Shown here: one piece after another, positions 2,320-62,837 of the stretch
Layout of the letters: the number at the start of each line of letters is the position of its first letter
Position numbering within the stretch: position 1 is the stretch's first letter
Assembly: GCF_012843435.1 (NCBI RefSeq)
Contig: NZ_JABAFC010000001.1
Coordinates: forward strand, 186,001-250,000
Origin: Psychrobacillus sp. BL-248-WT-3
Lineage (GTDB): Bacteria; Bacillota; Bacilli; Bacillales_A; Planococcaceae
Direction of reading: 5' to 3'
Length of the DNA: 64,000 nt
Notes under the pieces: generated by a model
Databases searched by the model: none
What the model was told of the DNA's origin: nothing
What the model saw: the letters and a program-made list of their open reading frames with translations, nothing else
Made by a program: the position numbers and the translations under genes

Positions 2320-2345
2320 TCAAAAATAATAAGATAGAATCTTTG

Positions 2346-2384
2346 ACAGGAGCGGCAATTACTAAAGCCTCTCCTGTTTTTATA
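2346..2384 (+). terminator. Rho-independent terminator
   Basis: ACAGGAG (2346-2352) pairs with CTCCTGT (2371-2377), extended by two inner G-C pairs after one mismatch and followed by T residues. It lies just downstream of the amidohydrolase gene. Confidence 0.75.
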
Positions 2385-2525
2385 TGCATTAAAATCTCGT
2401 AAACTCGCATCATAATTGAAATCTATAATTTTTTGTGTACTAATCTCTTAAATTCACACATATATTCATATCTAAGTGATTTATTGGTATGTAATTATTT
2501 TAACTAATGAGTTTGGGGGAATCTA

Positions 2526-5120: not shown

Positions 5121-5164
5121 ATATTGATTTATGAGTGGAACATTTTGTATAATTCTAATAATAT

Positions 5165-5448
5165 AAAAAGGCGTTGAAGAGGAAAAGTAGAGTGATGATG
5201 TTATATAGAGAGCTTCTGGTGGTGGAAATGAGGCAAGCTAGTCATTCGAACATGATCTCGGAGCTTCGTACTGAACGTTAAACAACTAGTAGGATACGAC
5301 AAGAGTTGGCACTTGTTACCCATGTCAAAGTATAAAGGCTTTTTGCTATGTACTTATGGAGTCAAATGGTGTGAACCATTTGAGTATTAAGGTGGTACCA
5401 CGAGATAACCTCGTCCTTATCGAAATTTCGATATGGATGAGGTTTTTT
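5165..5448 (+). promoter_or_regulatory. T-box riboswitch leader of the methionyl-tRNA synthetase gene, with terminator
   Basis: The leader shows Stem I features (AAGTAGAG, AGAGAG region), a specifier-loop candidate GAAC-ATG-A with the methionine codon at 5252-5254, and the conserved T-box AAGGTGGTACCACG at about 5389-5402. A terminator hairpin follows (5408-5416 with 5435-5443, then a T run). Uncharged tRNA-Met would stabilise the antiterminator through the T-box bulge and allow transcription of the synthetase gene. The agreement of specifier and downstream gene makes the assignment strong; the exact 5' end is uncertain. Confidence 0.9.
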
Positions 5449-7983: not shown

Positions 7984-8457
7984 ATGAAGAAACCAGGTTC
8001 AATTCTGTTGTTATTATTATTTATACTGATGTTAACAGGGTGTAATTACGTAGAAGAAAAGAAAGCTGAAAATATTATTCAAAATTATTATCAAGCAATA
8101 ATAGATGAGGATTATGAGAAAGCATTTAAACAATTACATTTATATGTTACAGAAGAGGGTAAGTTAGCTGGTAAAACTGACTTATCCGAACAGGAAGCAA
8201 AAGCTATATATTTAGAAAAAATCAATCTCTTGGAAGAACAAAAGTATAAACTGAAAGACTTTGAAATTGTAGAGATCGAGTACGAAGACGGGCACTCATT
8301 CTGGCACCATATCAAGCTTGAAGTAGAGCAGGATGGAGAAAAAAGTGAATGGAATGAAGTTGCTTACATTGTTAAAGGAAAGTTATTGATCGGTGAAAAA
8401 GATGACCCATATGCAAAGTATCGAGATGGGAAGATGTTTTTTGAAGAAGAGAAATAA
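7984..8457 (+). CDS. Small lipoprotein, NTF2-like candidate
   Basis: A 157-residue exported lipoprotein. The signal peptide is followed by the lipobox LTGC with lipidated Cys at 20. The mature part is mostly charged and begins with a helix-rich segment (AENIIQNYYQAIIDEDYEKAFKQL) of the kind found in DUF4878/NTF2-like lipoproteins, followed by beta-strand-like stretches. No catalytic motif was recognised. The ATG is preceded by AGGGAGG. It is single, and lies between the repeat pair and the DinB-family gene. Function unknown. Confidence 0.75.
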   Translation: MKKPGSILLLLLFILMLTGCNYVEEKKAENIIQNYYQAIIDEDYEKAFKQLHLYVTEEGKLAGKTDLSEQEAKAIYLEKINLLEEQKYKLKDFEIVEIEYEDGHSFWHHIKLEVEQDGEKSEWNEVAYIVKGKLLIGEKDDPYAKYRDGKMFFEEEK

Positions 8458-8603
8458 CCTGTTGGAAATACATATTCCAGCTAAGTTAAATGATGATACT
8501 ATATTTATATCTTGAATCTGCATTCATATTTAATAAGTCCTTTTACTTGAATAAGACGGCTTATAAATTAAAATGAAAATAGATATAACTAGGAGGTATT
8601 CAT

Positions 8604-9077
8604 ATGTATCGTAAAACAGAAGATTTTATACAAGAATGGGCGATGTCAGCTGATGGTACAGTTAACGTTTTTAAAGCAATGACAGATGATAAGCTGAACC
8701 AAGCAATTGCAGAAAACCATAATACACTAGGATGGTTAGCTTGGCATTTAACGACAGCACCCATTTTTCTAGCTAAGCTAGCAAAAATTGACCTACCATC
8801 TGTTGGGAACCCTAAGGAAGTACCTGGATCAGTTGACACAATTGTCTCTGCTTATGAAACAATGGCAGATGCTTTTAAAGAGGCTGCAGCATCTCTAACG
8901 GATGCAGATTTGGTAGAGCAAGTACCTGCGTTTGGCACTTCTATTCCACGTGGTCAAATATTACGAAAAATCATAGATCATCAAACACATCATCGTGGTC
9001 AAATGACCGTTTTACTTCGCCAAGCAGGATTAGAGGTACCCGGAGTTATGGGACCTACAAAAGAACAACAGATGTAA
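8604..9077 (+). CDS. DinB/YfiT-family metal-dependent protein
   Basis: A 157-residue four-helix-bundle protein of the DinB superfamily. The three metal-binding histidines are visible as H48 (in LAWHLT) and H126/H130 (in DHQTHHRGQ), the last helix being the diagnostic one. Members are often thiol-dependent transferases or hydrolases acting on small molecules, many linked to bacillithiol, but the substrate of this one is not evident. This DinB family is unrelated to DNA polymerase IV, which is encoded elsewhere in the window. AGGAGG lies ahead of the ATG; a terminator follows directly. Confidence 0.88.
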   Translation: MYRKTEDFIQEWAMSADGTVNVFKAMTDDKLNQAIAENHNTLGWLAWHLTTAPIFLAKLAKIDLPSVGNPKEVPGSVDTIVSAYETMADAFKEAAASLTDADLVEQVPAFGTSIPRGQILRKIIDHQTHHRGQMTVLLRQAGLEVPGVMGPTKEQQM

Positions 9078-9083
9078 AGAAGC

Positions 9084-9115
9084 CACCTTCATTTTAAAAA
9101 TGAAGGTGTTTTTTT
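9084..9115 (+). terminator. Rho-independent terminator
   Basis: An 11-bp perfect stem (9084-9094 with 9098-9108), 3-nt loop and a T7 run, directly after the DinB-family gene. Confidence 0.92.
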
Positions 9116-9333
9116 GAGAGAATATATAGAGAGAAAACAGAAACCAGCCAGTTTAAGGTTGGTTTTGAAAATGTGTTATAGGAAACCGCTAAATCTTCTT
9201 GGGGAATATATTTTATATAAAATTTTTAATGTACTGTTAATATAAGTGTTAAAGTTAGAGTAAATTATGAAGTCTAAAAGATGTCGTAATTATAGTATTT
9301 ACTCAAACATTACTTTCTAAGGGAGCTTTTAAA

Positions 9334-9732
9334 TTGAGTATAAAGTTCAAACCCTTTTTAAAAGAAGAGTTAACAGTTGAACACCTGCACTTTGCTTTAC
9401 TCAAAGAAGACATAACTTTATAAGAATTAGTTATGTTTTATATGGATAGAATTGCAAAGTTTGATAAGAATGGTCCTAATCTTAATTTAATTATCGAGAT
9501 AAATCCTCATGCTTTATTTATAGCAGAGGCTTTGCACTATGAAAGAAAGAAACAAGGCGTGAGAGGGTTATTACATGGGATTCCTGTTCTGCTTAAAGAT
9601 AATATTGAAACAAATGATTCTATGCATACAAGCGCTGGGTCACTTGCGCTAGAAAGCTACATTAGTAATCAAGATGCTTTCTTAGTTGATAAAGCTTCAT
9701 CAATCAATGAATTTTTTGGAAATAAATTCTAA
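9334..9732 (+). pseudogene. Amidase-signature enzyme, truncated remnant
   Basis: The frame reads as the N-terminus of an amidase: LTVEHLHFALLKED, an in-frame TAA at 9421-9423, then MDRIAKFDKNGPNLNLIIEINPHA and the family hallmark RGLLHGIPVLLKDNIET with the catalytic-lysine region, then SAGSLALESYISNQDAFLVDK. After that the similarity stops and the frame ends within about 15 codons. Full amidases run to about 480 residues and need the GSS(G)GS signature and catalytic serines, all absent. One internal stop plus loss of the C-terminal three quarters marks it as dead. An AAGGGAG-like site still precedes the TTG at 9334. Confidence 0.8.
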
Positions 9733-9805
9733 TAAATAGCGTATCATAGGCATATGTAGTTCAATTAAGTTTAATAGTAGAACAAAAAGAAAGGAGTAGG
9801 ATATT

Positions 9806-9985
9806 TTGTATCAAATTGCACAATTAGGAGTTTTATATAATCCAATACTAGCTGTAATTATTTGTGTAAACCTAGTTTCTATCTTGCATAAAGTTAGAGA
9901 CAACGAGGATACTTCTGTCAATACGATTGTAATAAGTGTATGTTCAGCGATTATCCTATTTTCAATTACGGCATTAGCTGAATAG
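9806..9985 (+). CDS. Small two-helix membrane protein
   Basis: A 59-residue protein starting at a TTG with AAAGGAGTAGG six bases upstream. Two hydrophobic segments (about residues 8-28 and 39-57) are separated by a short charged loop HKVRDNEDTS. No family was recognised. An overlapping open frame on the other strand lacks a ribosome-binding site, so this strand is preferred. It could be a genuine small membrane protein; it could also be a remnant, given its neighbours (dead amidase, repeats). Confidence 0.5.
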   Translation: MYQIAQLGVLYNPILAVIICVNLVSILHKVRDNEDTSVNTIVISVCSAIILFSITALAE

Positions 9986-10069
9986 CGATTTACCAATCAA
10001 ACACAAAAAACTTCTTTATATGGATTGTAGCTACATGCGGCGATTTAAGTATGAATGTGGAGACAAATA

Positions 10070-10109
10070 AAACCATCACCCCACGGAAAGCGGAAATCAA
10101 CTCTACTTT
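10070..10109 (-). repeat. Short remnant of the palindromic repeat edge
   Basis: About 38 bases (CATCACCCCACGGAAAG then CGGAAATCAACTCTAC) match the outer edge of the repeat core seen in copy C, right beside copy C. Too short to be a full copy. Confidence 0.5.
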
Positions 10110-10116
10110 ATTATAA

Positions 10117-10505
10117 AAGTTTTGTTAAAGTTATTGGTTGATTTTGACTAACAACTCTTTTTTATAGTAACTGTAAACATAAAAAAAGAACGTTCAAATC
10201 GCTATTAAGACTATAAATAGATGATGAAATTGGGGTTGGTGACACTTTTCAACTTTGTTTATGGGAATAAATTTATTAACACTTATCGATACATTAAAGC
10301 TGTTCCCATTTATTGATTGGAGCACCAGACGGCGACTCCTACGGGATGAGTGAGACAGATAAGACCTCACAACCACGCGCGTAAGCGATGGGTGATGGCT
10401 TATCGCTCACCCCGTGGAAAGCGTCCGGCTGGGGCGGAAATCAGTTCTACTCTCTGGTTAAGATTTCTTTGCATCATAAATCAACCCTACCCTCTAACAT
10501 AGCCT
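10117..10505 (-). repeat. Dispersed palindromic repeat, copy C (subtype I, reverse orientation)
   Basis: The reverse complement of copy A over most of its length: TTGTTAAAGTTATTGGTTG end, GGGGTTGGTGACA, the palindromic core between 10318 and 10435, then CTCTGGTTAAGATTTCTTTGC and AATCAACCCTACC. It is the fullest subtype I copy together with the one at 35811. Confidence 0.85.
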
Positions 10506-10708
10506 TATAAAAAAACATATAATACTCTTATTCTCTTTTAATTGTTCAAGTTTTTTCATAAATAATGGAATTATGAAATTGATTTGGAAATAAGATTAAA
10601 CTAATAGCGTTCGTTAAAGAAGGGGAAATTATTGGCATATAAGTTTACCTCAGTCAGAAAATTGCTATTTATATTTACAGCTAGGATAAATAATTTCAAG
10701 GTAAGGAT

Positions 10709-10807
10709 ATTGGAAAGCGGTAACTCCTAGGGGAAAAGCGCGTGGGAGAGGCTACAGGCTGAGGCAACGTGCCCCCAGGAAAGCGTTCGCTGAAATGGAG
10801 AACAACG
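10709..10807. repeat. GC-rich palindromic segment of another type
   Basis: About 100 bases of GC-rich sequence in an AT-rich gap, with GGAAAGCGGTAACTCC at one end and GGAAAGCGTTCGCTG near the other. The wording resembles intergenic repeats spread through Bacillaceae genomes but differs from the main repeat of this window. Confidence 0.5.
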
Positions 10808-10820
10808 ATGATGAAGTAGC

Positions 10821-10866
10821 AAAAAAGCCCTGAAAATTTTACTGTTTGTAAAATTTTCAGGGCTTT
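10821..10866 (-). terminator. Terminator, minus-strand (nearly symmetrical)
   Basis: AAAAGCCCTGAAAATTTTA pairs with TAAAATTTTCAGGGCTTTT across a short loop. The A run at the left is a T run on the minus strand, so it ends the 12903-10904 transcript; it would also work from the other side. Confidence 0.9.
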
Positions 10867-10903
10867 TGAACTTCTAAGATGCGTGTTGTCACAGTGCTGT
10901 AAT

Positions 10904-12112
10904 TTATTGCGTATCGAATACCTTTAAATCATAAGAGTAAATACTTTTTCTTTGAACGCTTGATAATAGTTCGGATAAGCCAGTTATATCAAGGCTACTT
11001 ACACGATTGCCATTGGTTAAATCATATTCCTCTAAATAATATTTTTCTTTCTTATCTTCACTATATCTTAGGACAAAAAGTGAACCATCCTTAAAATAAG
11101 TTTCTTCATTATTTCTTATTTTAGATTCACTAGCATCTTCTAAAGAGAATTTTAGCTGGATTTCTTCTGTATTTGTATCAAAGGTGTAAACTTCCCCTAA
11201 GCCATTGATAAAGTACAGAATGTCATTATATATATAAGCAGAGTTCTTAAAATTATATGGAATGGTTGCCACAAGATCCTTCATATCCTGATATTCTATG
11301 AAATCATACGTTTCCTGCTGAAGAGTATCCTTATTGATTCGATAAAGACTGGTCTTCTCGTTGAAGTCATCTATGGCAGATGACAAGATTAAATAGTAAT
11401 ATGTTTGATCTGATAAGACAGGGGCTAATGCGTTAAAAAACTCACCCTTTGGTGTATCTACTTTTGATAAATGTTCAACCTCTAAGGATGTATCAAATGT
11501 TACTTCCTTTAAATAGAACTCATTTTTATCTACATCCTGAGTAAGAATATTGACTTTATCACTTTCAACGCCAGAGGCTGCGATGTAAAAGGGAATTTTA
11601 TCTGTTTGAAAATTTTTCTCGTTTCCAAACCGAACATCTGAACGATATCCTTTTCCATCCTGTGCAAATCCACTGTTATAAATGCTAAAGAATATTTCCT
11701 CCTCTTGAATATAACCTGAACGTTCTCCTGTGTACTGGTCAGTTTTCATTGGAAATTCCTTATATTCCTCTCCTACTAGGCGAACCATATCTTTTTCCTC
11801 TAAAAAAACGTTGTTGTCATAAACTGCTGTGCTGCCTAACTCCAATCCCTCCATTTTTAATGCTTGAGCTTTACCTGATTTATTAATGAAAACAGCATAA
11901 CTAAATCCTTCCCCATCTATATCCTGATCAGCCGTAGTAGACAGATAAAGAATTGCCTTCTTGTTATGTAGAAAATTTTCCTTTTCGATATCAGCTTTAG
12001 ATAGAAGTAAACTGCTAGTTGCTTGTGTAGGTGTGAAAAAGAATGTGTATGCGAAATAAACAATAACCCCTAGGCCAATGATTCCGATTAGAGAAACTAT
12101 ATTTTTCTTCAT
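10904..12112 (-). CDS. Membrane-anchored extracytoplasmic protein, beta-propeller-like
   Basis: 402 residues with one N-terminal membrane helix (residues 4-26) and a large exterior domain. That domain is rich in alternating beta-strand-like stretches and Tyr/Phe-containing repeats (YYYLILSSAIDDFNEKTSLYRI, YNDILYFINGLGEVYTFD, LFVLRYSEDKKEKYYLEEYDL), which suggests a propeller-like sensor or binding domain. No lipobox or catalytic motif is present. It lies 68 bp downstream of the YycO-like secreted hydrolase gene in the same direction, so the two are probably co-expressed and may act together at the cell surface. Family not recognised. Confidence 0.65.
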   Translation of the reverse strand: MKKNIVSLIGIIGLGVIVYFAYTFFFTPTQATSSLLLSKADIEKENFLHNKKAILYLSTTADQDIDGEGFSYAVFINKSGKAQALKMEGLELGSTAVYDNNVFLEEKDMVRLVGEEYKEFPMKTDQYTGERSGYIQEEEIFFSIYNSGFAQDGKGYRSDVRFGNEKNFQTDKIPFYIAASGVESDKVNILTQDVDKNEFYLKEVTFDTSLEVEHLSKVDTPKGEFFNALAPVLSDQTYYYLILSSAIDDFNEKTSLYRINKDTLQQETYDFIEYQDMKDLVATIPYNFKNSAYIYNDILYFINGLGEVYTFDTNTEEIQLKFSLEDASESKIRNNEETYFKDGSLFVLRYSEDKKEKYYLEEYDLTNGNRVSSLDITGLSELLSSVQRKSIYSYDLKVFDTQ

Positions 12113-12134
12113 ATAAAATTCCCTCCTAAAAGTA

Positions 12135-12175
12135 AAATGACAATAGGCAGTATTTCGACTGTCCTATTGTCATTT
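12135..12175 (-). terminator. Perfect intergenic hairpin between two minus-strand genes (attenuator candidate)
   Basis: AAATGACAATAGG (12135-12147) pairs exactly with CCTATTGTCATTT (12163-12175). On the minus strand the hairpin is followed by a T-rich tract and then the AGGAGGG ribosome-binding site of the downstream gene. It probably reduces readthrough between the two genes or stabilises the upstream mRNA. Confidence 0.65.
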
Positions 12176-12180
12176 GACTG

Positions 12181-12903
12181 TTAAATATTCCTTACTAAGG
12201 TTGTACCTGGCGCGTCCCGCACATCTCTAGGATATACTCCAAGCCCACCATCATCATCTAAATCTAAGTTACCGTTTAATTTATATGCAGACCAAATTAA
12301 CTTCGAACAGTTTTTGGCTCCGTTATGTCCAGTAGATCTGTTAGTTGCAAAATTATACGAATAACTCTGGCCTACTTGTGAATAGGCCCAATTAGCAGCA
12401 TTATTTCTATTAGTTGAAGTGGTGCCCACCGATTTAACTAGAGCACCCGAGCTATCTACCTTTCTAGCAGTGGTAGAAATAGTGCGTACCCCAGAAGAAG
12501 GAACAGATTCTACTATTGTAGTAGAAGTATAATAAAGTCCGACATGACCATGATCAAGATAGGCTGTTTGAGAAGGGGTGTAGTAGAAGTTACCTTTAGT
12601 ACTGTTTCCTACACTAACTGTTCCACCACTTGCGCCTTGAGTTTGATTGGACTTTGCTTCAGCCAATCCTTGAGCTTGATCGTTTTTTAACTCTTTATAG
12701 ATTTGTTCTAAAATCTGTTCTTCCGTTTCTCCAGTGTTTTTTGCAATTTCTTGAACACTGGCCATCATTTCTTCAGTAGAGACATCTGGTTGTAGGGATG
12801 AAATTTCATCAAGATACGAGTAGCTGTTGGCAGAGGCACTAGTAAAGGAAGTCGAGACGAGTAACATAGCTGATAACGATAGAGCAGCGAATGGTTTTTT
12901 CAT
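12181..12903 (-). CDS. Secreted YycO/YiiX-like permuted papain-fold protein
   Basis: 240 residues. A signal peptide ends near ASA at 24-26, followed by a charged helix and a Gln/Ser-rich linker (80-100). The C-terminal domain carries DHGHVGLYY (H118/H120) and, much later, AKNCSKLIWSAY (C199). His before Cys is the reversed order expected of the circularly permuted NlpC/P60-like (YiiX/YycO) group, whose members are thiol hydrolases or lipid/peptide amidases. The residue pair is consistent with an active enzyme. AGGAGTTGTACT (minus strand) supports the ATG. It is the first gene of a two-gene unit ending at 10904. Confidence 0.7.
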   Translation of the reverse strand: MKKPFAALSLSAMLLVSTSFTSASANSYSYLDEISSLQPDVSTEEMMASVQEIAKNTGETEEQILEQIYKELKNDQAQGLAEAKSNQTQGASGGTVSVGNSTKGNFYYTPSQTAYLDHGHVGLYYTSTTIVESVPSSGVRTISTTARKVDSSGALVKSVGTTSTNRNNAANWAYSQVGQSYSYNFATNRSTGHNGAKNCSKLIWSAYKLNGNLDLDDDGGLGVYPRDVRDAPGTTLVRNI

Positions 12904-13266
12904 AGTACAACTCCTTTTTCATATTTTTCCTACATCTATAATTTTAATCATTTAGTACAAATTTACAATTGGGAAAAAAATTCACAAAAACAAAATTTCT
13001 GCAAAACTAATTAAATATTCAGTCTATTAAGCGCTGATTATTTCATTAATTAAATTTCGACTACTGTCGCTCACATTTCTGTGTGGGCGCAAATAATGCC
13101 ACCTAAAGCTATTGCTATTAAGTAGTCGCATAAAATTTTGAATCTTATATTTAGTTGTAGATTTTAAATACAACTATTTTAAATTGGGAAAATAAATAGC
13201 AGTAAAGAAGGAAATGAATTCCTTTATCTAGAAATAAAAAGAGATGGTTAATTAAGGAGGATTAAA
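12904..13266. other. Gap with a structured inverted repeat (13058-13128)
   Basis: 363 bases without a gene. CGACTACT (13058-13065) pairs with AGTAGTCG (13121-13128), and inside it CGCTCACA (13068-13075) pairs with TGTGGGCG (13082-13089), giving a stem with an inner hairpin. The right end holds AAGGAGG for the next gene. This could be a small RNA or leader element; no known family was recognised. Confidence 0.4.
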
Positions 13267-54834: not shown

Positions 54835-54863
54835 TTGACATTATACCTATAGGGGTATAATGT
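54835..54863 (+). promoter_or_regulatory. Promoter with embedded CstR-type operator 1
   Basis: TTGACA (54835-54840), then TATACCTATAGGGGTATA (54842-54859), an inverted-repeat CstR-type site filling the spacer, and TAATGT or TATAAT as the -10 element. It precedes the CoA-disulfide reductase gene by about 200 bases. Confidence 0.85.
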
Positions 54864-55069
54864 AAATGATGAAAGTAAGTGAAATTAAACCTGATAATTA
54901 ATCTTATCAAGAACATTTTCATGTATGGATTGTAGTCGCAGAAGTTATTATAACTGGCTTAAGTAAGCAATGCGTGATGACCAGAGCAGAATATAAACAT
55001 CGTGTGTTTGAAATTAAGGTTCTTGATAATGTAGCTAATGATATAAATAATCATATGGAGGTAATATGG

Positions 55070-56761
55070 ATGAAGAAAATAGTGGTTATTGGTGGTGTGG
55101 CTGGCGGAGCTTCGGCAGCTGCCAGAATTCGACGTTTAGATGAGCAAGCACATATTGTTATGTTTGAAAAAGGTCCGCATGTATCTTTTTCAAATTGTTC
55201 ATTACCATTTCATTTAAGTGGGATCGTAGAAGATAGTAAACGTCTACTTATGATGACACCAGATTCCTTTGAATCGAAATACAATATTGATGCACGTGTT
55301 AACAATGAAGTCGTTTCAATTAACCGTGATGAAAAAACTGTAACCATTAAAAATGTGGAAACAGGTGAGCTGTCTAATGAATCATACGATAAGTTAATCT
55401 TATCGCCAGGAGCAAGCCCAATTATACCAAAGCTACCTGGAACAGATTTACCACACGTATTTACTGTGCGAAATGTAGTAGATATTGAAAAATTACAAGA
55501 TGCGATTGTCAAAAAAGACGCAAGAAATATTGCGATTATTGGTGGTGGGTTTATAGGTGTAGAGGTAGCTGAAAACCTTCGCTTAGCTGGGCGTGATGTA
55601 GCATTGGTCGAACATGCACCTCAGATTCTCACACCATTCGATGGAGATATGGTACAAATATTGCATAAGGAAATGATGGATCAAGGTATTCAGTTGGTGG
55701 TAGACGATGGCTTAGCTGAGATTAATATGTCCTCGATTACTTTAAGCTCAGGTAAAGTACTCGAAGCGGATATCGTAGTATTGGCAATTGGTGTTCGTCC
55801 AGAGACATCACTTGCAGTGGAAGCAGGACTGGAGATTGGTGAAACAGGTGCCATTAAAGTAAATCAAAATTACCAAACAAATGATACAAATATATATGCG
55901 GTGGGAGATGCAATCGAAGTATATCACCGCCTAATGAATAAACCAACACGTTTAGCATTAGCTGGGCCAGCACAGCGCCAAGCACGTGCAGCTGCAGATC
56001 ATATTTATGGTATTCCTAATGCAAATAAGGGTGTAATCGGCTCTTCAAGTATTCAAGTGTTTGATTATGCAGCTGCCGCTACAGGATTAAATGAACGTAC
56101 TGCGAAAGAAATTGGTATACCAGTGGATGCGGTATACGTAATTGCTCCAGATAAAGTTGGGCTGATGCCATCCAGCAATCCATTACATTTTAAATTGATT
56201 TATGAAGTTCCTACTGGACGTATTGTTGGTGCACAAGCTATCGGAAAAGGTAATGCAGATAAGCGTATCGATGTGATAGCAACTCTAATTACAATGAATG
56301 GAACAATTGAAGATTTAAAAGACTTAGAGCTTTCTTATTCCCCAATGTTTTCTACTGCTAAAGATGTTGTGAATTTAGCGGCACTGGTGGCAACGAATAT
56401 GATGGCAGGTCGTTTTAAACAAGTACGTGTAAGTGAAGTACGTTCATTAGTTGAATCGGGAGCTTTTATTGTAGATGTGCGTGAGCCTAATGAATTTGCA
56501 AATGGAGCAGTGAAGGGTGCAAAGAATATTCCTTTAAGTCAGTTACGTGAGCGTATGCATGAGATTCCAAAGGATATCCCTGTATATGTTCATTGTCGTT
56601 CAGCACAGCGGAGTTATAATGCTGTCATGGCATTAGAACATAGCGGTTATGATAAAGTTTTTAATATTTCGGGTTCATTTTTGGGAATAAGCTTATACGA
56701 ATATTTTAATGACCAACAGCAACATCGTGAACCAATCGTGACGAAATATAATTTTAAATAA
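55070..56761 (+). CDS. CoA-disulfide reductase with C-terminal rhodanese domain
   Basis: 563 residues. FAD-binding GGVAGGASAAARIRR at the N-terminus, single active-site Cys 43 in SFSNCSLPF, a second NAD(P)H-binding region (GGGFIGVEVAENL), a C-terminal dimerisation domain and a rhodanese domain with active Cys 509 (VHCRSAQRS). This is the CoA-persulfide/disulfide reductase (Npsr-like) fusion, which reduces CoA persulfide or polysulfide. ATG at 55070 follows GGAGG. First gene of the sulfur island. Confidence 0.9.
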   Translation: MKKIVVIGGVAGGASAAARIRRLDEQAHIVMFEKGPHVSFSNCSLPFHLSGIVEDSKRLLMMTPDSFESKYNIDARVNNEVVSINRDEKTVTIKNVETGELSNESYDKLILSPGASPIIPKLPGTDLPHVFTVRNVVDIEKLQDAIVKKDARNIAIIGGGFIGVEVAENLRLAGRDVALVEHAPQILTPFDGDMVQILHKEMMDQGIQLVVDDGLAEINMSSITLSSGKVLEADIVVLAIGVRPETSLAVEAGLEIGETGAIKVNQNYQTNDTNIYAVGDAIEVYHRLMNKPTRLALAGPAQRQARAAADHIYGIPNANKGVIGSSSIQVFDYAAAATGLNERTAKEIGIPVDAVYVIAPDKVGLMPSSNPLHFKLIYEVPTGRIVGAQAIGKGNADKRIDVIATLITMNGTIEDLKDLELSYSPMFSTAKDVVNLAALVATNMMAGRFKQVRVSEVRSLVESGAFIVDVREPNEFANGAVKGAKNIPLSQLRERMHEIPKDIPVYVHCRSAQRSYNAVMALEHSGYDKVFNISGSFLGISLYEYFNDQQQHREPIVTKYNFK

Positions 56762-56813
56762 TGATTTCACCATTTGCGGATTGGGCTACCTTTTTACATG
56801 AAGGGAGATGTTT

Positions 56814-57845
56814 ATGACTTATATAACTGTGGGGCAATTTTCAATACCCATTGCATGGATTGCATTTTTTATCGCTATTCTCTACAGCGATTTTAGAAAC
56901 AAAAATAAAGATAATCGTACTGACAAAATAATTAGTCGTCTTTTTTGGTTTTACGTTTTAATCTGGAAATTAAGTTATATCCTATTTTCCTGGGAAAGCT
57001 TTGTCCAAGCACCTATGTCAATACTATATTTTGATGGAGGTTTAAAAGGAAATATATTAGCCTTCATGGTGATGATAATTGTACTTGTGAAGCATCGAGC
57101 GGGAATTGAGTGGGAGGTGCTATGGCAATATTGGATCCGCTTTGTAGCAGCCCACCAATTCGTAAACTATATCTTAATGGAGCAATGGGTCATTGCAATT
57201 ATATGGTTAGCACTATTAGTTTTACTCGAAATGAAAGAGAAACAGTGGTTAATAATTGTTCAGTGGCCAATTATTTTATGGATAAGTGGATGGATGAACG
57301 CACTAGTCATAGCACATTTAATGGTCATTTTGTCTTTAATTTTAAAAAAGAAAAGCTATCAGCAAATTGCTTTAATTGGTGTACTTAGCTTAATGGCTAT
57401 GACAGTGACTGATTTACAATCGACCGTTTCCACAACTGACAGAGTTGTAATCGATTTAAATACTACCTCAAATGATAGATATATTTTGTCGGAGAAAGAC
57501 CAGAAGCTCACAGTGGTGAATTTCTTTGCGACTTGGTGTCCACCATGTCAGGCAGAGATGCCACATTTACAAAATTTTGCTGAAGATTTACCAGATCAAG
57601 TGGAATTGATTGGGATCAATTTGACTGACCGTGATAATGGTCCGAAGGCATTAGCAGAGTTTATGGAAACATATGAAGTGACATATCCCATGTTGTTAGA
57701 TGAAAAGGATCGGTTTGGTAAGTCCTATAATATTGTTTCTATACCCACTACGGTAGTTCTAAATAAGGATGGGCAAGAGCTAGAACGGATTATAGGGCCG
57801 GTAAGTGAAGAGGTTTTACGAAATTTAACGAACAAGTATAAATGA
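56814..57845 (+). CDS. Multi-pass membrane protein with TlpA-like thioredoxin domain
   Basis: 343 residues. About six to seven N-terminal membrane helices (residues 8 to 199) of unrecognised family, then a thioredoxin-like domain with WCPPC (C242 and C245) in VVNFFATWCPPCQAEMP, and the cis-Pro SIPTTVV, which make it a TlpA/ResA-type redoxin. The domain is probably outside the cell. It would exchange electrons with thiols/disulfides, perhaps for persulfide handling. ATG at 56814 with AAGGGAG at the right distance; the ATG at 56808 abuts the site. Confidence 0.85.
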   Translation: MTYITVGQFSIPIAWIAFFIAILYSDFRNKNKDNRTDKIISRLFWFYVLIWKLSYILFSWESFVQAPMSILYFDGGLKGNILAFMVMIIVLVKHRAGIEWEVLWQYWIRFVAAHQFVNYILMEQWVIAIIWLALLVLLEMKEKQWLIIVQWPIILWISGWMNALVIAHLMVILSLILKKKSYQQIALIGVLSLMAMTVTDLQSTVSTTDRVVIDLNTTSNDRYILSEKDQKLTVVNFFATWCPPCQAEMPHLQNFAEDLPDQVELIGINLTDRDNGPKALAEFMETYEVTYPMLLDEKDRFGKSYNIVSIPTTVVLNKDGQELERIIGPVSEEVLRNLTNKYK

Positions 57846-57945
57846 TTTATATCTTTAAATTATGGGATGTGGCCCTCTACATCCTATAATGACTTTAATA
57901 TTCTTGTCTCTCGCAATTGAGGTCCAAAGCTTCTATTCTTTTGTG

Positions 57946-57974
57946 TTGACATATACCCTATGGGGTAGTAATAT
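57946..57974 (+). promoter_or_regulatory. Promoter with embedded CstR-type operator 2 (cstR promoter)
   Basis: TTGACA, 17 bases, TAATAT; the spacer holds ATACCCTATGGGGTA, a CstR-type inverted repeat. The repressor therefore covers its own promoter. Confidence 0.9.
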
Positions 57975-58011
57975 GTGTTTAGAACAAATATTGATTAAAT
58001 GAGGTGAGATG

Positions 58012-58272
58012 ATGCAATATGATGCGAAGGTTACAGCAAGGATGAAAAAAGTAGAAGGCCAGCTTAGAGGTATACTACGTATGATGGAAGAAGAAAAAGA
58101 TTGTAAAGATGTGATTACACAACTAAGTGCTGTTCGTTCTGCTGTAGATCGTACAATTGGTGTTATTGTCACAGATAATTTAGTTGAGTGTTTATCTAAA
58201 GAAAATGTAGAAACTCTTGATAAAAATGCAATGGTTAAGCAAGCAGTTGATCTATTAGTAAAAAGTCGATAA
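58012..58272 (+). CDS. cstR: Persulfide-sensing repressor of the CsoR/CstR family
   Basis: 86 residues from ATG 58012 (GAGGTGAG ahead). The two conserved cysteines fall at 31 (KDCKDV) and 60 (LVECL), the positions of CstR in Staphylococcus aureus; the copper-binding His of CsoR is replaced by Asn 56. It is thus a sulfane-sulfur sensor rather than a copper sensor. Persulfide/polysulfide linking of the cysteines should release it from the nearby operators. Equivalent to B. subtilis YrkD. Confidence 0.9.
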   Translation: MQYDAKVTARMKKVEGQLRGILRMMEEEKDCKDVITQLSAVRSAVDRTIGVIVTDNLVECLSKENVETLDKNAMVKQAVDLLVKSR

Positions 58273-58294
58273 GACTTTTTATTTTTACAATAAG

Positions 58295-58311
58295 ATATAC
58301 CTATACGGGTA
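58295..58311 (+). promoter_or_regulatory. CstR-type operator 3
   Basis: ATATACCTATACGGGTA just upstream of the DsrE2-like gene ribosome-binding site (AAGGAG). No strong promoter was found at this point. Confidence 0.65.
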
Positions 58312-58322
58312 AGGAGATAATT

Positions 58323-58799
58323 ATGGAAAAGAAAAGAACAACAATCGTTTTGTTTAGTGGTGATTATGACAAGGCAATGGCTGCCTATATTATTGCGAAT
58401 GGTGCAGCAGCTTATGACCACGAAGTTACTATTTTTCACACGTTCTGGGGAATTAATGCGTTACGTAAGCAAGAATCAGTTCCAGTAAAAAAAGGATTTT
58501 TAGAAAAAATGTTTGCTAAGATGATGCCACGAGGTGCTGAAAAGCTTGGTTTATCAAAAATGCAAATGCTTGGGATGGGTCCCAAAATGATTAAACATGT
58601 AATGAATAAGCACAATGCATTAACGCTAACACAGCTTGTGGAGATGGCTCAAGAACAAGACATTAAATTAGTAACTTGTACGATGACAATGGATTTACTA
58701 GGACTTCAAAAAGAAGAGCTATTAGATGGTATTCAATATGCAGGTGTTGCAGCTTATTTAGCAGATGCAGAAAATGGCAATGTAAACTTATTCATATAA
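58323..58799 (+). CDS. DsrE/DsrF-like sulfur-relay protein (YrkE-like)
   Basis: 158 residues, DsrE2-type. IVLFSGDYDKAMAAYIIANGAAAYDHEVTIFHTFWGI at the N-terminus, a Met-rich middle (KMFAKMMPRG, KMQMLGMGPKMIKHVM) and a single conserved Cys 119 in LVTCTMTMDLLG that would carry persulfide. B. subtilis yrkE lies in the same position. Three-gene-scale spacing of 11 bp to the next gene suggests operon. Confidence 0.85.
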   Translation: MEKKRTTIVLFSGDYDKAMAAYIIANGAAAYDHEVTIFHTFWGINALRKQESVPVKKGFLEKMFAKMMPRGAEKLGLSKMQMLGMGPKMIKHVMNKHNALTLTQLVEMAQEQDIKLVTCTMTMDLLGLQKEELLDGIQYAGVAAYLADAENGNVNLFI

Positions 58800-58809
58800 G
58801 AGGTGACAT

Positions 58810-59151
58810 ATGGAAACAATAATTATTATAGCGGTCGTAGCAGTGTTTTTAATGTGGCGCTTTAAACCGACAAAAGGGATTCAAAATATATCTACCGGAC
58901 AGTTAAAACAAATTATTAACGATAAGGATAAAGTATTTGTCGATGTAAGAACAAAAGGTGAATTCAAATCACGAAATATACCCCAATTTAAAAATATACC
59001 ACTTGGTTCTGATCTTTCGAAGTTACCAAAAGACAAGGAAATCATTGTAATCTGTCAAAGTGGTATGCGCTCAAGTCAAGCGTGTAAGCAATTAACGAAA
59101 TTGGGATTTACTAAAGTAACGAATGTCCGTGGCGGCATGAGTGCATATTAG
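58810..59151 (+). CDS. Membrane-anchored rhodanese
   Basis: 113 residues. One N-terminal membrane helix (residues 3-15), then a rhodanese domain with Cys 82 (ICQSGMRSS), so the enzyme sits on the inner face of the membrane. It transfers sulfane sulfur. AGAGGTG precedes the ATG. Confidence 0.88.
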   Translation: METIIIIAVVAVFLMWRFKPTKGIQNISTGQLKQIINDKDKVFVDVRTKGEFKSRNIPQFKNIPLGSDLSKLPKDKEIIVICQSGMRSSQACKQLTKLGFTKVTNVRGGMSAY

Positions 59152-59163
59152 GAGGATATTAAA

Positions 59164-59460
59164 ATGAAAACAATCTTACCAGAGCAAGTACAACAAAAGC
59201 TACAAGCAGGGGAAAATCTAAATTTAATTGACGTGCGTGAGGTTTCTGAAGTTGAGGCAGGTCATATACCGGGTATCATCCATATACCATTAAACTTGTT
59301 AGAATTTCGTTTACACGAATTAGATAAGACTAAACCGTACATTATGGTTTGCCGTTCAGGTGGTCGCAGTGGCCAAGCAACAACGTTTTTAGAAGCTCAA
59401 GGTTTTGATGTGACGAATATGTCTGGCGGGATGCTTGAATGGAATGGAGAAGTTAAATAA
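59164..59460 (+). CDS. Rhodanese-like sulfurtransferase
   Basis: 98 residues, single rhodanese domain with active Cys 63 in VCRSGGRSG, no membrane helix. AGGAGG precedes the ATG; 12 bp after the preceding rhodanese gene. Confidence 0.9.
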   Translation: MKTILPEQVQQKLQAGENLNLIDVREVSEVEAGHIPGIIHIPLNLLEFRLHELDKTKPYIMVCRSGGRSGQATTFLEAQGFDVTNMSGGMLEWNGEVK

Positions 59461-59481
59461 ATTACATTTTTTCAAAAAAAT

Positions 59482-59499
59482 TATACCCTAACCGGTATA
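59482..59499 (+). promoter_or_regulatory. CstR-type operator 4
   Basis: TATACCCTAACCGGTATA, inverted-repeat site next to the ribosome-binding site of the TusA-rhodanese gene (GGAGG). Confidence 0.75.
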
Positions 59500-59513
59500 G
59501 GTGGAGGTAACAA

Positions 59514-60074
59514 ATGGTTAAATCAGATGTGCAATTAAATGCAAAGGGCTTAGCTTGCCCAATGCCAATAGTGAAAACTAAAAAAGCAATGAATGAAGTG
59601 GAAGAAGGTCAAGTTTTAGAAATCCAAGCAACAGATAAAGGTTCTGTCGCGGATTTAGCAGCTTGGTCAAAAACAGTAGGGCACCAATACATCGGTTCTC
59701 ATGAAGAAAATGGTGTATTTTATCATTATATACGAAAATGCAATCCAGAAATTAGCGAGCAACAAGAAAAGTCATTTAAACAAACGGTTTCAAATGAAGA
59801 AGCAATCGCTGGTGATGGCTTAATCTTAGATGTGCGTGAAGCAGCAGAGTATGGATTCGGCCATATCCCCGGTGCGAAATCGATCCCAATGGGTGAGTTA
59901 GAAAATCGTTTATCTGAATTAGATCAAGAGCAAACCATTTATGTCATTTGCCGTACTGGTACTCGCTCGGATATGGCTGCACAGCAATTGACAAAAGCAG
60001 GTTATAAAAAAATATATAATGTCTTACCTGGTATGTCAGGGTATGAAGGCGAATTACAGAAAGAGGTTGAATAA
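59514..60074 (+). CDS. TusA-rhodanese fusion (YrkF-like)
   Basis: 186 residues. N-terminal TusA domain with the GLACPMP motif (Cys 15) and C-terminal rhodanese domain with Cys 146 (VICRTGTRS). It joins a persulfide carrier with a sulfurtransferase. Same arrangement as B. subtilis YrkF. GGAGGTAAC precedes the ATG. Confidence 0.92.
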   Translation: MVKSDVQLNAKGLACPMPIVKTKKAMNEVEEGQVLEIQATDKGSVADLAAWSKTVGHQYIGSHEENGVFYHYIRKCNPEISEQQEKSFKQTVSNEEAIAGDGLILDVREAAEYGFGHIPGAKSIPMGELENRLSELDQEQTIYVICRTGTRSDMAAQQLTKAGYKKIYNVLPGMSGYEGELQKEVE

Positions 60075-60075
60075 T

Positions 60076-60471
60076 ATGTCAAACAAAGTAGCAATAATTG
60101 CATCTAACGGCGGTTTATTTGATGCATATAAAGTATTTAACATTGCAACAGCAGCGGCAGCTTCTGATAAGGAAGTAGCAATTTTCTTTACTTTTGAAGG
60201 CTTGAACCTTATCCATAAGCAAGGTATGCACGCACTTGAAATGCCAGCAGGCAAAGAGCATTTTGCAGAAGGCTTCGCTCAGGCACAAGTCCCAGCAATT
60301 CCGCAATTGGTTGAGATGGCTCAGGAGCTAGGTGTAAAATTTATTGCTTGCCAAATGACAATGGATGTTATGGGCTTAACAAAAAATGATTTTGTAGACG
60401 GTATTGATGTAGGCGGAGCAGTTACGTTCCTAGAATTCGCGAAAGACGCATCACCAACATTAACATTTTAA
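60076..60471 (+). CDS. DsrE-family small sulfur-relay protein
   Basis: 131 residues with the DsrE fold (VAIIASNGGLFDAYKVFNIATAAAASDKEVAIFFTFEGL) and persulfide-carrying candidate Cys 92 in IACQMTMDVMGL. A paralog of the DsrE2-like gene at 58323, lacking its Met-rich insert. ATG at 60076 is 2 bp from the end of the TusA-rhodanese gene; AAAGAGG is ahead of it. Confidence 0.85.
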   Translation: MSNKVAIIASNGGLFDAYKVFNIATAAAASDKEVAIFFTFEGLNLIHKQGMHALEMPAGKEHFAEGFAQAQVPAIPQLVEMAQELGVKFIACQMTMDVMGLTKNDFVDGIDVGGAVTFLEFAKDASPTLTF

Positions 60472-60517
60472 TTAGGTAATGGGAGGGGAGTTCCCTTCCG
60501 ACCTAAAAATTTTTAAT
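60472..60517 (+). terminator. Strong hairpin, probable terminator/attenuator
   Basis: TTAGGT pairs with ACCTAA, inner GGAGGGG with CCCTTCC; then AAAAATTTTT. Lies before operator 5, separating two transcription units. Confidence 0.6.
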
Positions 60518-60523
60518 AAAAAA

Positions 60524-60540
60524 TATACCTATGGGGGTAC
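60524..60540 (+). promoter_or_regulatory. CstR-type operator 5
   Basis: TATACCTATGGGGGTAC immediately upstream of the rhodanese-dioxygenase gene, overlapping its GGGGG ribosome-binding site. Confidence 0.75.
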
Positions 60541-60546
60541 TTGTTT

Positions 60547-61674
60547 ATGACAGTAAATATATGGACAGCTGCTGATGTAGCTCGAAAAGTAATTGATAAT
60601 AAAGAATTATTTATATTAGACGTCCGAAATGCAGATGCATTTGAGGATTGGAAGATTGAAGGTCATAAATTTGAGTATTTAAATATTCCATATTTTGATC
60701 TTTTAGATGGTGTAGAAGAGATACTAGAGCAAATTCCTACCGACAAAGATGTTTTAGTAGTATGTGCTAAGGAAGGCTCTTCTATTATGATTGCTGAAAT
60801 GTTGTCGGATGCTGGTCGTGAAGTTGCTTATTTAGCCGGTGGGATGAAATCCTGGTCTATGTATTTAGAGCCAATTAAAGTAGGAAATCTTGCAAATGGT
60901 GGCGAGCTATACCAATTCGTACGTTTAGGAAAAGGCTGCTTATCCTACATGGCAATTTCTGAAGGTGAGGCAGCGCTTATAGATGCAGTCCGTTTCACAG
61001 AAGTATTTACAAATTTTGCACAGGAAAAAGGTGTAGAAATCAAGCATGTATTTGATACTCACTTACACGCCGACCATATTTCAGGAGGACGTCATATCGC
61101 TGCTGAAACAGGAGCAACCTATTATTTACCACCGAAAGATGCAGAAGAGGTTGTGTTTGACTACACAGCCCTTACAGACGGTTTAACTGTACAGCTTGGG
61201 TCAACAAAAATTGATGTAGGTGCGCTTTACTCACCAGGTCATACAATTGGTTCAACTTCATTTGTGATTGATGAAAAGTACTTATTAACAGGAGATATTT
61301 TATTCATCGATTCGATTGGGCGTCCTGATTTAGCCGGTCTGGCAGAGGATTGGGTAGCAGATTTACGCGAAACATTATACTCTCGCTATCGTTCATTAGC
61401 TGAAGATCTAATCGTATTACCAGCACACTTTATGATTATTGAAGAGCTAAACGAAAATGGTACTGTAGCAAAACGTTTAGGAGATCTATTTGCAGAAAAT
61501 CATGGCTTAAATGTAGAGGACGAGGAAGTATTCCGTTCAATGGTAACAGACAACTTGCCTCCTCAACCAAATGCCTATCAAGAAATTCGCCACGTGAACA
61601 TGGGCAAAATTACACCAAGTAATGAAGAACAAACGGAAATGGAAATCGGACCAAACCGTTGTGCAGTACGTTAA
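60547..61674 (+). CDS. Rhodanese fused to persulfide dioxygenase-like MBL (YrkH-like)
   Basis: 375 residues. N-terminal rhodanese domain (Cys 73, VVCAKEGSS), then an MBL domain of the ETHE1 type: [10 protein letters not shown] (H172, H174, D176, H177), H232 in SPGHTIG, D250 in TGDILFID. Fe-binding equivalents of ETHE1 are H172, H232 and D250. It would oxidise glutathione/bacillithiol/CoA-type persulfides to sulfite. The rhodanese is N-terminal, the reverse of CstB. ATG at 60547; TTG at 60541 is an alternative. Confidence 0.87.
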
Positions 61675-61764
61675 TTTTCATAACAAAGGAAATATTATTC
61701 ATACACTTGTCTCTTGGAGAGAAGTTTATACTGACAACAAATAATACGAGAAGAGGAATATAAC

Positions 61765-61992
61765 ATGAACATTACTAAAACATTAGATGCAAAAGGATTA
61801 GCATGTCCAATGCCAATCGTTCGTACGAAAAAAACAATTGATACGATTAATTCTGGAGAAATACTAGAAGTATTAGTTACTGATAAAGGTGCGTTAAATG
61901 ACTTTACAGCGTGGGCAGCAGCTGGTGGGCATACAATTGTTGAACAAAAAGAGGAAGACGGCGTGTTATTCTTTTATATTCAAAAAGCTTAA
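61765..61992 (+). CDS. TusA-family sulfur carrier (YrkI-like)
   Basis: 75 residues, GLACPMPIVRTKKTI with persulfide Cys 14. A free TusA domain next to the dioxygenase gene. GAAGAGGAA precedes the ATG. Followed by a terminator. Confidence 0.93.
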   Translation: MNITKTLDAKGLACPMPIVRTKKTIDTINSGEILEVLVTDKGALNDFTAWAAAGGHTIVEQKEEDGVLFFYIQKA

Positions 61993-62004
61993 CAGTATAA
62001 ATTG

Positions 62005-62035
62005 CGAGTAGAATATTCTTCTACTCGTTTTTTTT
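62005..62035 (+). terminator. Rho-independent terminator
   Basis: CGAGTAGAA pairs with TTCTACTCG, followed by T8, between tusA and the tauE-type gene. Confidence 0.9.
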
Positions 62036-62057
62036 ACAGAAAGAAGGGACAGACATT

Positions 62058-62837
62058 ATGGATCTTTCCATTACATTTATAGTTGTTATTTTTGCCCTTG
62101 GATTTATAGGGTCATTTGTTTCGGGCATGTTAGGAGTTGGGGGCTCCATCATTAAATACCCCTTGCTATTATACGTTCCACCACTATTTGGACTGGTGGC
62201 ATTTTCTGCCCATGAAGTATCAGGAATTAGTGCGATTCAAGTATTCTTCGCTTCTATTGCAGGTGTGTGGGCATACCGAAAAAGTGGGCTGCTCCATAAG
62301 GAATTGATTATTTATATGGGTGGGGCAATTTTACTTGGAAGCTTTATTGGTAGTTACGGTTCAGGATTTTTATCGGAGGACGCTGTTAATATTGTGTACG
62401 GAATACTCGCTATAATTGCTGCGGTTATGATGTTTATTCCACGTAAAACTATAGAGGAAAACGCTAAAATTTCATTCAATAAAGTTCTTGCAAGTAGCCT
62501 AGCGCTCATTGTTGGAGTTGGATCTGGGATCGTCGGAGCAGCGGGTGGCTTTTTACTCGTCCCGATTATGCTTACCGTTTTAAAAATTCCAACACGTGTT
62601 ACAATTGCGACCAGTTTAGCAATCACCTTTATTTCTTCTATTGGTGGTAGTGTAGGTAAAATTATTACTGGTCAAATTGAGTACTGGCCTGCGTTCATTA
62701 TGATTATCGCAAGTATCATCGCAGCACCTTTAGGAGCAAAAATTGGTCAAAAAATGAATGTGAAAATTCTACAATGGTTGTTAGCTATTATGATTGGTGC
62801 AACAGCTATTAAAATTTGGATCGATATTTTACAGTAA
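62058..62837 (+). CDS. TauE/SafE sulfite-exporter family membrane protein (YrkJ-like)
   Basis: 259 residues with about eight membrane helices and the TauE glycine-rich motifs [25 protein letters not shown] and [20 protein letters not shown]. Expected to export sulfite or another sulfur oxyanion made by the dioxygenase. AAGAAGGGA precedes the ATG. Same place as yrkJ in B. subtilis. Confidence 0.9.

Follow-up and report, generated by a model that had tools for sequence, protein, structure and literature searches.

The window analysed here, a stretch of 64,000 nucleotides from Psychrobacillus sp. BL-248-WT-3, carries between 54.8 and 62.9 kb a cluster of persulfide genes with a CstR-type repressor gene and five operator-like sites, three of which stand directly before genes inside the cluster and are preceded by a short run of T on the coding strand (hereafter T-tract). 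Genes were identified from open reading frames (ORFs) and from Pfam and NCBIfam profile scans, and all are encoded on the plus strand:

55070..56761, plus strand: CoA-disulfide reductase-rhodanese (CoADR/CoAPR-like); Pfam Pyr_redox_2 and Rhodanese, TIGR03385 under its cut-off
56814..57845, plus strand: thioredoxin domain of the TlpA/ResA/StoA kind, N-terminal part long and hydrophobic; Pfam AhpC-TSA/Redoxin, NCBIfam StoA under cut-off
58009..58272, plus strand: CstR/YrkD-type repressor with C32 and C61; Pfam PF02583 (DUF156, CsoR/CstR; 4.3e-23) and alignment
58323..58799, plus strand: DsrE2-type sulfur carrier a (DsrE2a, YrkE-like); Pfam PF13686
58810..59151, plus strand: single rhodanese with a hydrophobic segment at the N-terminus; Pfam PF00581
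59164..59460, plus strand: second single rhodanese; Pfam PF00581
59514..60074, plus strand: TusA-rhodanese fusion (YrkF-like); Pfam PF01206 and PF00581
60076..60471, plus strand: DsrE2-type sulfur carrier b (DsrE2b); Pfam PF13686/PF02635
60547..61674, plus strand: rhodanese-MBL fusion (YrkH-like, putative persulfide dioxygenase); Pfam PF00753 and PF00581
61765..61992, plus strand: TusA (YrkI-like); Pfam PF01206
62058..62837, plus strand: putative TauE-like exporter (YrkJ-like); ORF only, its position matching the annotated TauE of locus L237

The profile scans confirm most of the gene content given in an initial annotation of this DNA, namely five rhodanese and two TusA domains (Pfam) and, by Pfam and NCBIfam, two DsrE-family proteins, a rhodanese-dioxygenase type protein and a CoADR-rhodanese; the genes listed there are real, and the TlpA/ResA-like thioredoxin gene had been left out. 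The domains of the two proposed TusA/DsrE/rhodanese sets are likewise present, but we rejected a recent duplication as their origin, the two DsrE2 copies being 33% and the TusA domains 50% identical. The expansion of the cluster that had been suggested is not supported either: a plasmid of Lysinibacillus fusiformis has a near-identical order (cstR-Rhd-Rhd-TusA family-DsrE-MBL-TusA-TauE), and the yrkD cluster of Bacillus licheniformis comprises 11 genes (PMC9918477; published accounts are cited here and below from excerpts). The gene set is an ordinary one, common in Bacillales and without special expansion.

Like the window cluster, that of B. licheniformis combines a sulfane-sulfur-sensing CstR-like repressor with genes for DsrE, TusA, rhodanese, a putative persulfide dioxygenase and TauE; it is transcribed as one mRNA, and its YrkD sites before and after yrkD can be likened to those of the window cluster (PMC9918477). 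It differs in that we saw no sqr, nreB or nreC between 54.8 and 62.9 kb of the window, where CoADR and TlpA-like genes are found instead. In the cst-like operon of Enterococcus faecalis, CstR also controls a CoA persulfide reductase-rhodanese and rhodaneses (PMC9405070). The staphylococcal cst locus (cstR-tauE / cstA-cstB; plasmid loci L234 and L235) shares CstR, TauE, a sulfurtransferase, a persulfide dioxygenase and TACC-N5-GGGTA-type sites with the window, but its layout is divergent and its operators lie only in the gap before cstR (12 kb inspected in each).

Two plasmid observations also concern gene content. A Cytobacillus oceanisediminis plasmid (L236) carries two rhodanese/TusA/DsrE/glutaredoxin/MBL/TusA/TauE sets, at 1592-5391 and 8001-13141, with genes for cytochrome c oxidase assembly and cstR lying between the sets or next to them. 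Plasmids CP065518.1 and CP031730.1, named Stenotrophomonas rhizophila, encode a CstR 61.6% identical to that of the window, a figure equal to that of the Lysinibacillus plasmid CstR; these names may be wrong or the plasmids mis-assigned.

Two kinds of operator in the window

Sites matching the motif TACC-N5-GGGTA start at 54844, 57954, 58298, 59484 and 60526, each exact in at least one orientation, the one at 59484 in the reverse. The initial annotation had placed five operators within 1–3 nt of these coordinates and assigned them to a CstR-type repressor. Their number and approximate positions were right, and the assignment is supported by the sensing cysteines C32 and C61, invariant in 14 of 14 aligned sequences, and by the finding that the 3.8-Mb assembly (91 contigs) contains TATACC-N5-GGGTA without mismatch at exactly five places, each of them within the cluster. 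The spacer needs correction from four to five nucleotides: TACC-N4-GGGTA has no exact match in the window, and its single-mismatch matches (7, against 7.03 expected) include none in the cluster. N57 of CstR presumably corresponds to the position of the CsoR histidine. From the motif we would expect CstR to bind at all five sites. The shorter TACC-N5-GGGTA has further matches at position 57742 of the window and at no fewer than two loci elsewhere in the genome (L017, L024), and two single-mismatch sites outside the cluster that were inspected by eye (L006, L007) had no promoter or gene-start context. The match at 57742-57755 (TACCGTAGTGGGTA, minus strand) falls within the coding sequence of the TlpA-like gene, some 200 nt upstream of promoter P2, and could be a chance occurrence or an auxiliary site.

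The features around the five operators are as follows:

54835..54863, plus strand: promoter P1, with TTGACA (54835-54840), -10-like TAATGT (54858-54863) and a 17-nt spacer
54844..54857, plus strand: operator 1, TACCTATAGGGGTA, within the P1 spacer; exact motif
57946..57974, plus strand: promoter P2, TTGACA followed by TAATAT; picked up by the sigma-A consensus scan
57954..57967, plus strand: operator 2, TACCCTATGGGGTA, within the P2 spacer; exact motif
58257..58286, plus strand: hairpin (58257-58283) behind cstR that leads into a T-rich tract (58276-58286, containing one A); -10.2 kcal/mol, z -5.8
58298..58311, plus strand: operator 3, TACCTATACGGGTA, 11 nt before the DsrE2a start and adjoining its Shine-Dalgarno (SD) sequence; T-tract type
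59467..59472, plus strand: T6 tract, 12-17 nt upstream of operator 4
59484..59497, plus strand: operator 4, TACCCTAACCGGTA, 16 nt before the TusA-rhodanese start; T-tract type
60482..60499, plus strand: hairpin upstream of the T-tract of operator 5; -12.5 kcal/mol, z -1.7, moderate
60510..60514, plus strand: T5 tract upstream of operator 5
60526..60539, plus strand: operator 5, TACCTATGGGGGTA, 7 nt before the rhodanese-MBL start; T-tract type

By sequence, the operators are of two kinds, a promoter type (sites 1 and 2) and a gene-start type (sites 3-5). Sites 1 and 2 are flanked by TTGACA on one side and a -10-like hexamer on the other, where a repressor is ordinarily found. P1 is absent from the output of the sigma-A consensus scan, and an alternative -10 (TATAAT at 54856) would leave a spacer of 15 nt; the same architecture is found at promoter-type sites of relatives. 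At sites 3-5 the scan of the window found no overlapping sigma-A -35/-10 pair (16-18 nt spacing), so that, judged by sequence, only sites 1 and 2 bear out the description of the cluster as multi-promoter. All three gene-start sites carry a T-tract, with 5 of 6 T at -17..-12 in the case of operator 3, and the G-run of operator 5 is the sole SD-like sequence before the rhodanese-MBL start. Hairpins upstream are strong at site 3, moderate at site 5 and weak at site 4 (-3.2 kcal/mol, z -1.8, by RNA folding).

The T-tract before gene-start operators in relatives

Both kinds of site recur in relatives, as does the TACC-N5-GGGTA pseudopalindrome, which is also present on the two staphylococcal plasmids. 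The sample comprised 141 loci (2.28 Mb): 60 regions, the window, and 80 loci from a CstR scan, these last being the best 80 of 579 confirmed stretches, from Solibacillus, Lysinibacillus, Peribacillus, Metabacillus, Neobacillus, Paenibacillus, Clostridium and others, with a few contigs shared between the 60 regions and the 80 loci. Within these best 80, close relatives reach CstR identities of 91% (Solibacillus faecavium) and 84% (S. palustris). Gene starts with an identical 72-nt context, with less than 140 nt upstream or near a locus end were dropped, which also clears doubly fetched contigs. The loci hold 343 operator sites, as against 36 for the reversed pattern; among the 129 loci of at least 14 kb, 41 have four or five sites and 27 have none. 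Sites with at least a 5/6 match to TTGACA near -9 were counted as promoter-type, and 189 others precede identified genes. We retained the 168 that lie within 45 nt of the start and excluded the other 21.

When these gene-start sites are aligned on the operator, the T-tract is visible as a run of T on the coding strand. A tract of at least 5/6 T at -17..-12 is present at 117 of the 168 sites, as compared with 7 for an A-tract (at least 5 A) in the same window, 10 for the mirror image downstream and one for T downstream. A free search from -66 to -6 finds a T window at 141 sites, of which 105 share a single 4-nt bin; this search replaces an earlier estimate of 17.3 +/- 1.0 nt between tract and operator, which we discarded because its sites had been pre-selected for the tract. 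The tract has a sharp edge, the frequency of T falling from 0.82 at -12 to 0.12 at -11. Counted by cluster (49 CstR clusters), it occurs in 50 of 77 cluster-by-family cases, with TusARhd at 16/18, DsrE2a at 11/12, MBLRhd at 11/18, TusA at 5/5 and RhdTM at 4/5, and with CoADR at 1/3, TauE at 1/2, DsrE2b at 1/1, Rhd at 0/5, CstR at 0/6 and TlpA at 0/2. The background, given by operator-less starts of the same gene families in the same loci, is 2.0%.

This background bears on one of the main rival explanations, in which the T-tract is an autonomous NusG-dependent pause in the mRNA leader, for instance one that synchronises ribosome loading, and the operator acts separately. NusG of Bacillus subtilis does pause polymerase at T residues -12, -11, -8, -7 and -6 from the RNA end (PMC8060035), and the tract lies on the coding strand. 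However, only 2.0% of the windows at operator-less starts in these loci contain such a tract, and the distance of the tract at the 141 sites varies little with respect to the operator (interquartile range 2 nt) and widely with respect to the start codon (16.5 nt; 46-62.5). We regard an autonomous pause as quite improbable, although NusG-dependent pausing may contribute at the T-tracts.

A second possibility, to which we give slightly less credence still, is that T- and A-tracts are phased bends that aid CstR binding at operators without promoter context. The centre of the T-tract lies 14.5 nt before the operator and about one helical turn from the A-rich stretch adjoining it. Bending would explain neither the preference for T on the coding strand (117 against 7) nor the confinement of the tract to the upstream side (117 against 10), although the latter argument is tempered by the constraints that the SD sequence places on the downstream side. 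As the operator is palindromic, T confined to one strand beside it points to something that is read by the polymerase.

The pattern was also sought in 200 genomes chosen irrespective of CstR and all labelled with one family. T5-N9..12-TACCC-N5-GGTA occurs in 136 of them, the A5 version in 36 and the reversed T pattern, used as control, in about 83 (counted by hand), and presence per genome is therefore a weak test. The genes that the matches precede are more telling: in a sample of 30 loci for which the DNA pattern was the only criterion, 17 matches stand before TusA-rhodanese, 7 before DsrE2b, one before cstR and 5 before no known gene.

Altogether, the T-tract and operator are well supported as a sequence module, while the mechanism behind it is unproven. 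This module is the new part, the roadblock by a bound repressor being already known. We found no description of it in titles and abstract beginnings of the open-access literature on CsoR/CstR, roadblocks and terminators, among the matches listed, and the term roadblock was unused among the matches listed for CsoR/CstR.

Promoters and hairpins at T-type sites

The other main rival to a roadblock holds that the internal sites are operators of weak promoters lacking a -35 box, in which the T-tract serves as an UP element or a feature of the spacer, and that the units behind them are initiated and repressed separately. T-tract and A-tract together do resemble an UP element as known from its consensus. 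Of the T-type sites behind cstR, 11 of 13 TusA, 3 of 3 TusARhd, 3 of 20 DsrE2a and none of 5 RhdTM sites have TTGAC at promoter spacing, the T-tract then lying inside the spacer. In B. licheniformis, the region behind yrkD (IR2) is bound by YrkD and drives a reporter in E. coli, with an activity thought weak by the authors (PMC9918477). No -35/-10 pair beyond those of shuffled upstream sequence (p<=0.05) was found at 34 TusARhd sites not behind cstR or at 27 MBLRhd T-type sites, and the -10 match did not exceed that of shuffled sequence (4.49 against 4.62 at 37 TusARhd sites, 4.33 against 4.59 at the 27 MBLRhd sites). Moreover, 24 of 27 MBLRhd genes start 5-9 nt after the operator, which leaves almost no room for a leader, and of 10 B. 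licheniformis intergenic regions placed before a reporter in E. coli, 3 showed promoter activity and 7 no expression (PMC9918477). We rejected internal promoters at sites 4 and 5 of the window, and for the T-type sites as a whole consider this explanation unlikely, though it deserves more weight than the other alternatives.

Judged by the layout of the genes, the T-type sites would lie in DNA that is transcribed from a promoter upstream. A codirectional gene lies within 300 nt upstream of 106 of 119 T-type sites, as compared with 36 of 69 promoter-type sites; upstream genes were called by the longest ORF, by which some antisense shadows were mistaken for genes (in L214 this was seen in the sequence). 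In L211 and L212, two loci found by the DNA pattern, the gene upstream of TusA-rhodanese and its T-type site is divergent, and a full CstR promoter (TTGACA, operator, -10-like hexamer) is present with its -35 box 84-85 nt upstream of that site. Locus L200, one of the 13 exceptions, has a promoter-like pair (TTGACG-17-TATAGT) 105 nt upstream with another operator adjoining. The Cytobacillus plasmid has a promoter-spaced T-type site behind cstR and, 46 nt further downstream, another T-type site.

Two further observations concern the region behind cstR. Tandem CstR operators about 40-50 nt apart were seen after cstR in L095 and L106 (cstR-DsrE2a gap) and L236 (8307/8353), the first operator beside promoter-like sequence (L095, L236) and the second of T-tract type. 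At TusA sites behind cstR, for example in L126, L156 and L189, TTGACA is apparently located, as judged by eye, in the loop of a terminator-like hairpin, GGGTTGACACCC, so that promoter and terminator seem to share bases; in these loci the -10 seems to follow after 20 nt.

Hairpins were considered since the T-tracts might be mere tails of ordinary intrinsic terminators of the gene upstream. This has some basis in the clear hairpin after cstR in the window (z -5.8) and in an excess of hairpins before the T-tracts at the DsrE2a and RhdTM sites of relatives (mean z -1.77 and -1.89). Before the T-tracts of TusARhd and MBLRhd, on the other hand, there is no such excess (mean z -0.33 and -0.32), and the B. 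licheniformis cluster forms a single polycistronic mRNA (PMC9918477). With the hairpin test positive after cstR and negative at TusARhd and MBLRhd, we rejected plain intrinsic terminators as a general explanation, and find it hardly credible that the tracts are nothing else.

A putative roadblock within the operon

We lean, by a narrow margin over even chance, towards a cluster in which CstR controls two promoters and in addition blocks the elongating polymerase at the internal T-tract operators. In a first layer, CstR would bind between -35 and -10 at P1 (before CoADR) and P2 (before cstR) and block initiation; in a second, it would lie across the ribosome-binding region at the three internal positions and halt polymerases that elongate from upstream. 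The T-tract, ending 12 nt before the internal operator, would coincide with the RNA 3' end in a polymerase that CstR has halted, and the weak rU:dA hybrid formed there would favour backtracking or release. Polysulfide would remove CstR and release all gates at once, so that a single long transcript results. The arrangement may plausibly serve to stop leaky transcription of the autoregulated cstR from entering the enzyme genes. Stalling, release and purpose at the internal sites are read from the sequence layout, and the reading of sites 3-5 as roadblock operators with a release-promoting tract is based on the one-strand T-tract, the geometry of RNA polymerase I (Pol I) termination and the distances known for EcoRI E111Q.

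RNA polymerase covers about 13-14 nt of its RNA. At a roadblock made by EcoRI E111Q, RNA is exposed up to 26-27 nt before the site (PMC4027176), and the two values together put the RNA 3' end at a distance similar to that of the T-tract. In Pol I termination, a bound protein pauses polymerase in a T-rich tract of the non-template strand 15 bp upstream of its site, tract and roadblock force backtracking, and an RNA hairpin completes release (PMC12366685). The eukaryotic terminators of Reb1, Nsi1 and TTF1 thus resemble the CstR sites in that a T-rich tract on the coding strand precedes the bound site by about 15 bp (here -17..-12); they differ in being located at gene ends, in serving another polymerase and in their required hairpin, whereas here an inducible repressor would act inside an operon and a hairpin is not general (PMC12366685). 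Among bacterial repressors, PurR, GalR, CcpA, CodY and LacI block elongation when bound downstream of the start site (PMC10310618), but a conserved T-tract module is not described for them in the excerpted part of that account. Internal operators beyond IR2 and a T-tract likewise go without mention in the excerpts on B. licheniformis (PMC9918477).

A number of observations weigh against a roadblock. The T-tract is lacking at 51 of the 168 gene-start sites, including all six CstR, five Rhd and both TlpA sites, and, within 12 kb around cstR, at the operators of the two staphylococcal cst loci (5/6 criterion). Counted by cluster, an A-tract occupies the -17..-12 window in 4 of 18 MBLRhd groups, and 13 of 79 promoter-type starts carry a T-tract too. 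Two exceptions without a near codirectional gene offer only a weak promoter-like pair (L188, 9/12) or none (L176). To these are added the frequent reversed pattern in whole genomes, the promoter-spaced TTGAC behind cstR, the activity of IR2 and the lack of a general hairpin, which in vitro is needed for fast release of Pol I besides T-tract and roadblock (PMC12366685).

More tentatively, and at somewhat less than even chance, we extend the roadblock reading to Bacillales in general: CstR regulons would use switchable roadblock terminators, in which a fixed T-tract 12-17 nt before the operator turns repressor binding into polymerase release, a bacterial and persulfide-inducible counterpart of Reb1/TTF1 used in series within one operon. 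While repressor roadblocks are known from bacteria, it is less clear what makes the stalled polymerase let go, and a conserved module tied to the operator would, if this reading is true, offer a natural and testable element for polymerase release. It would account, too, for the coexistence in one operon of an autoregulated repressor gene and enzymes that are tightly silenced, and it would alter the annotation of internal operators, which need not mark internal promoters.

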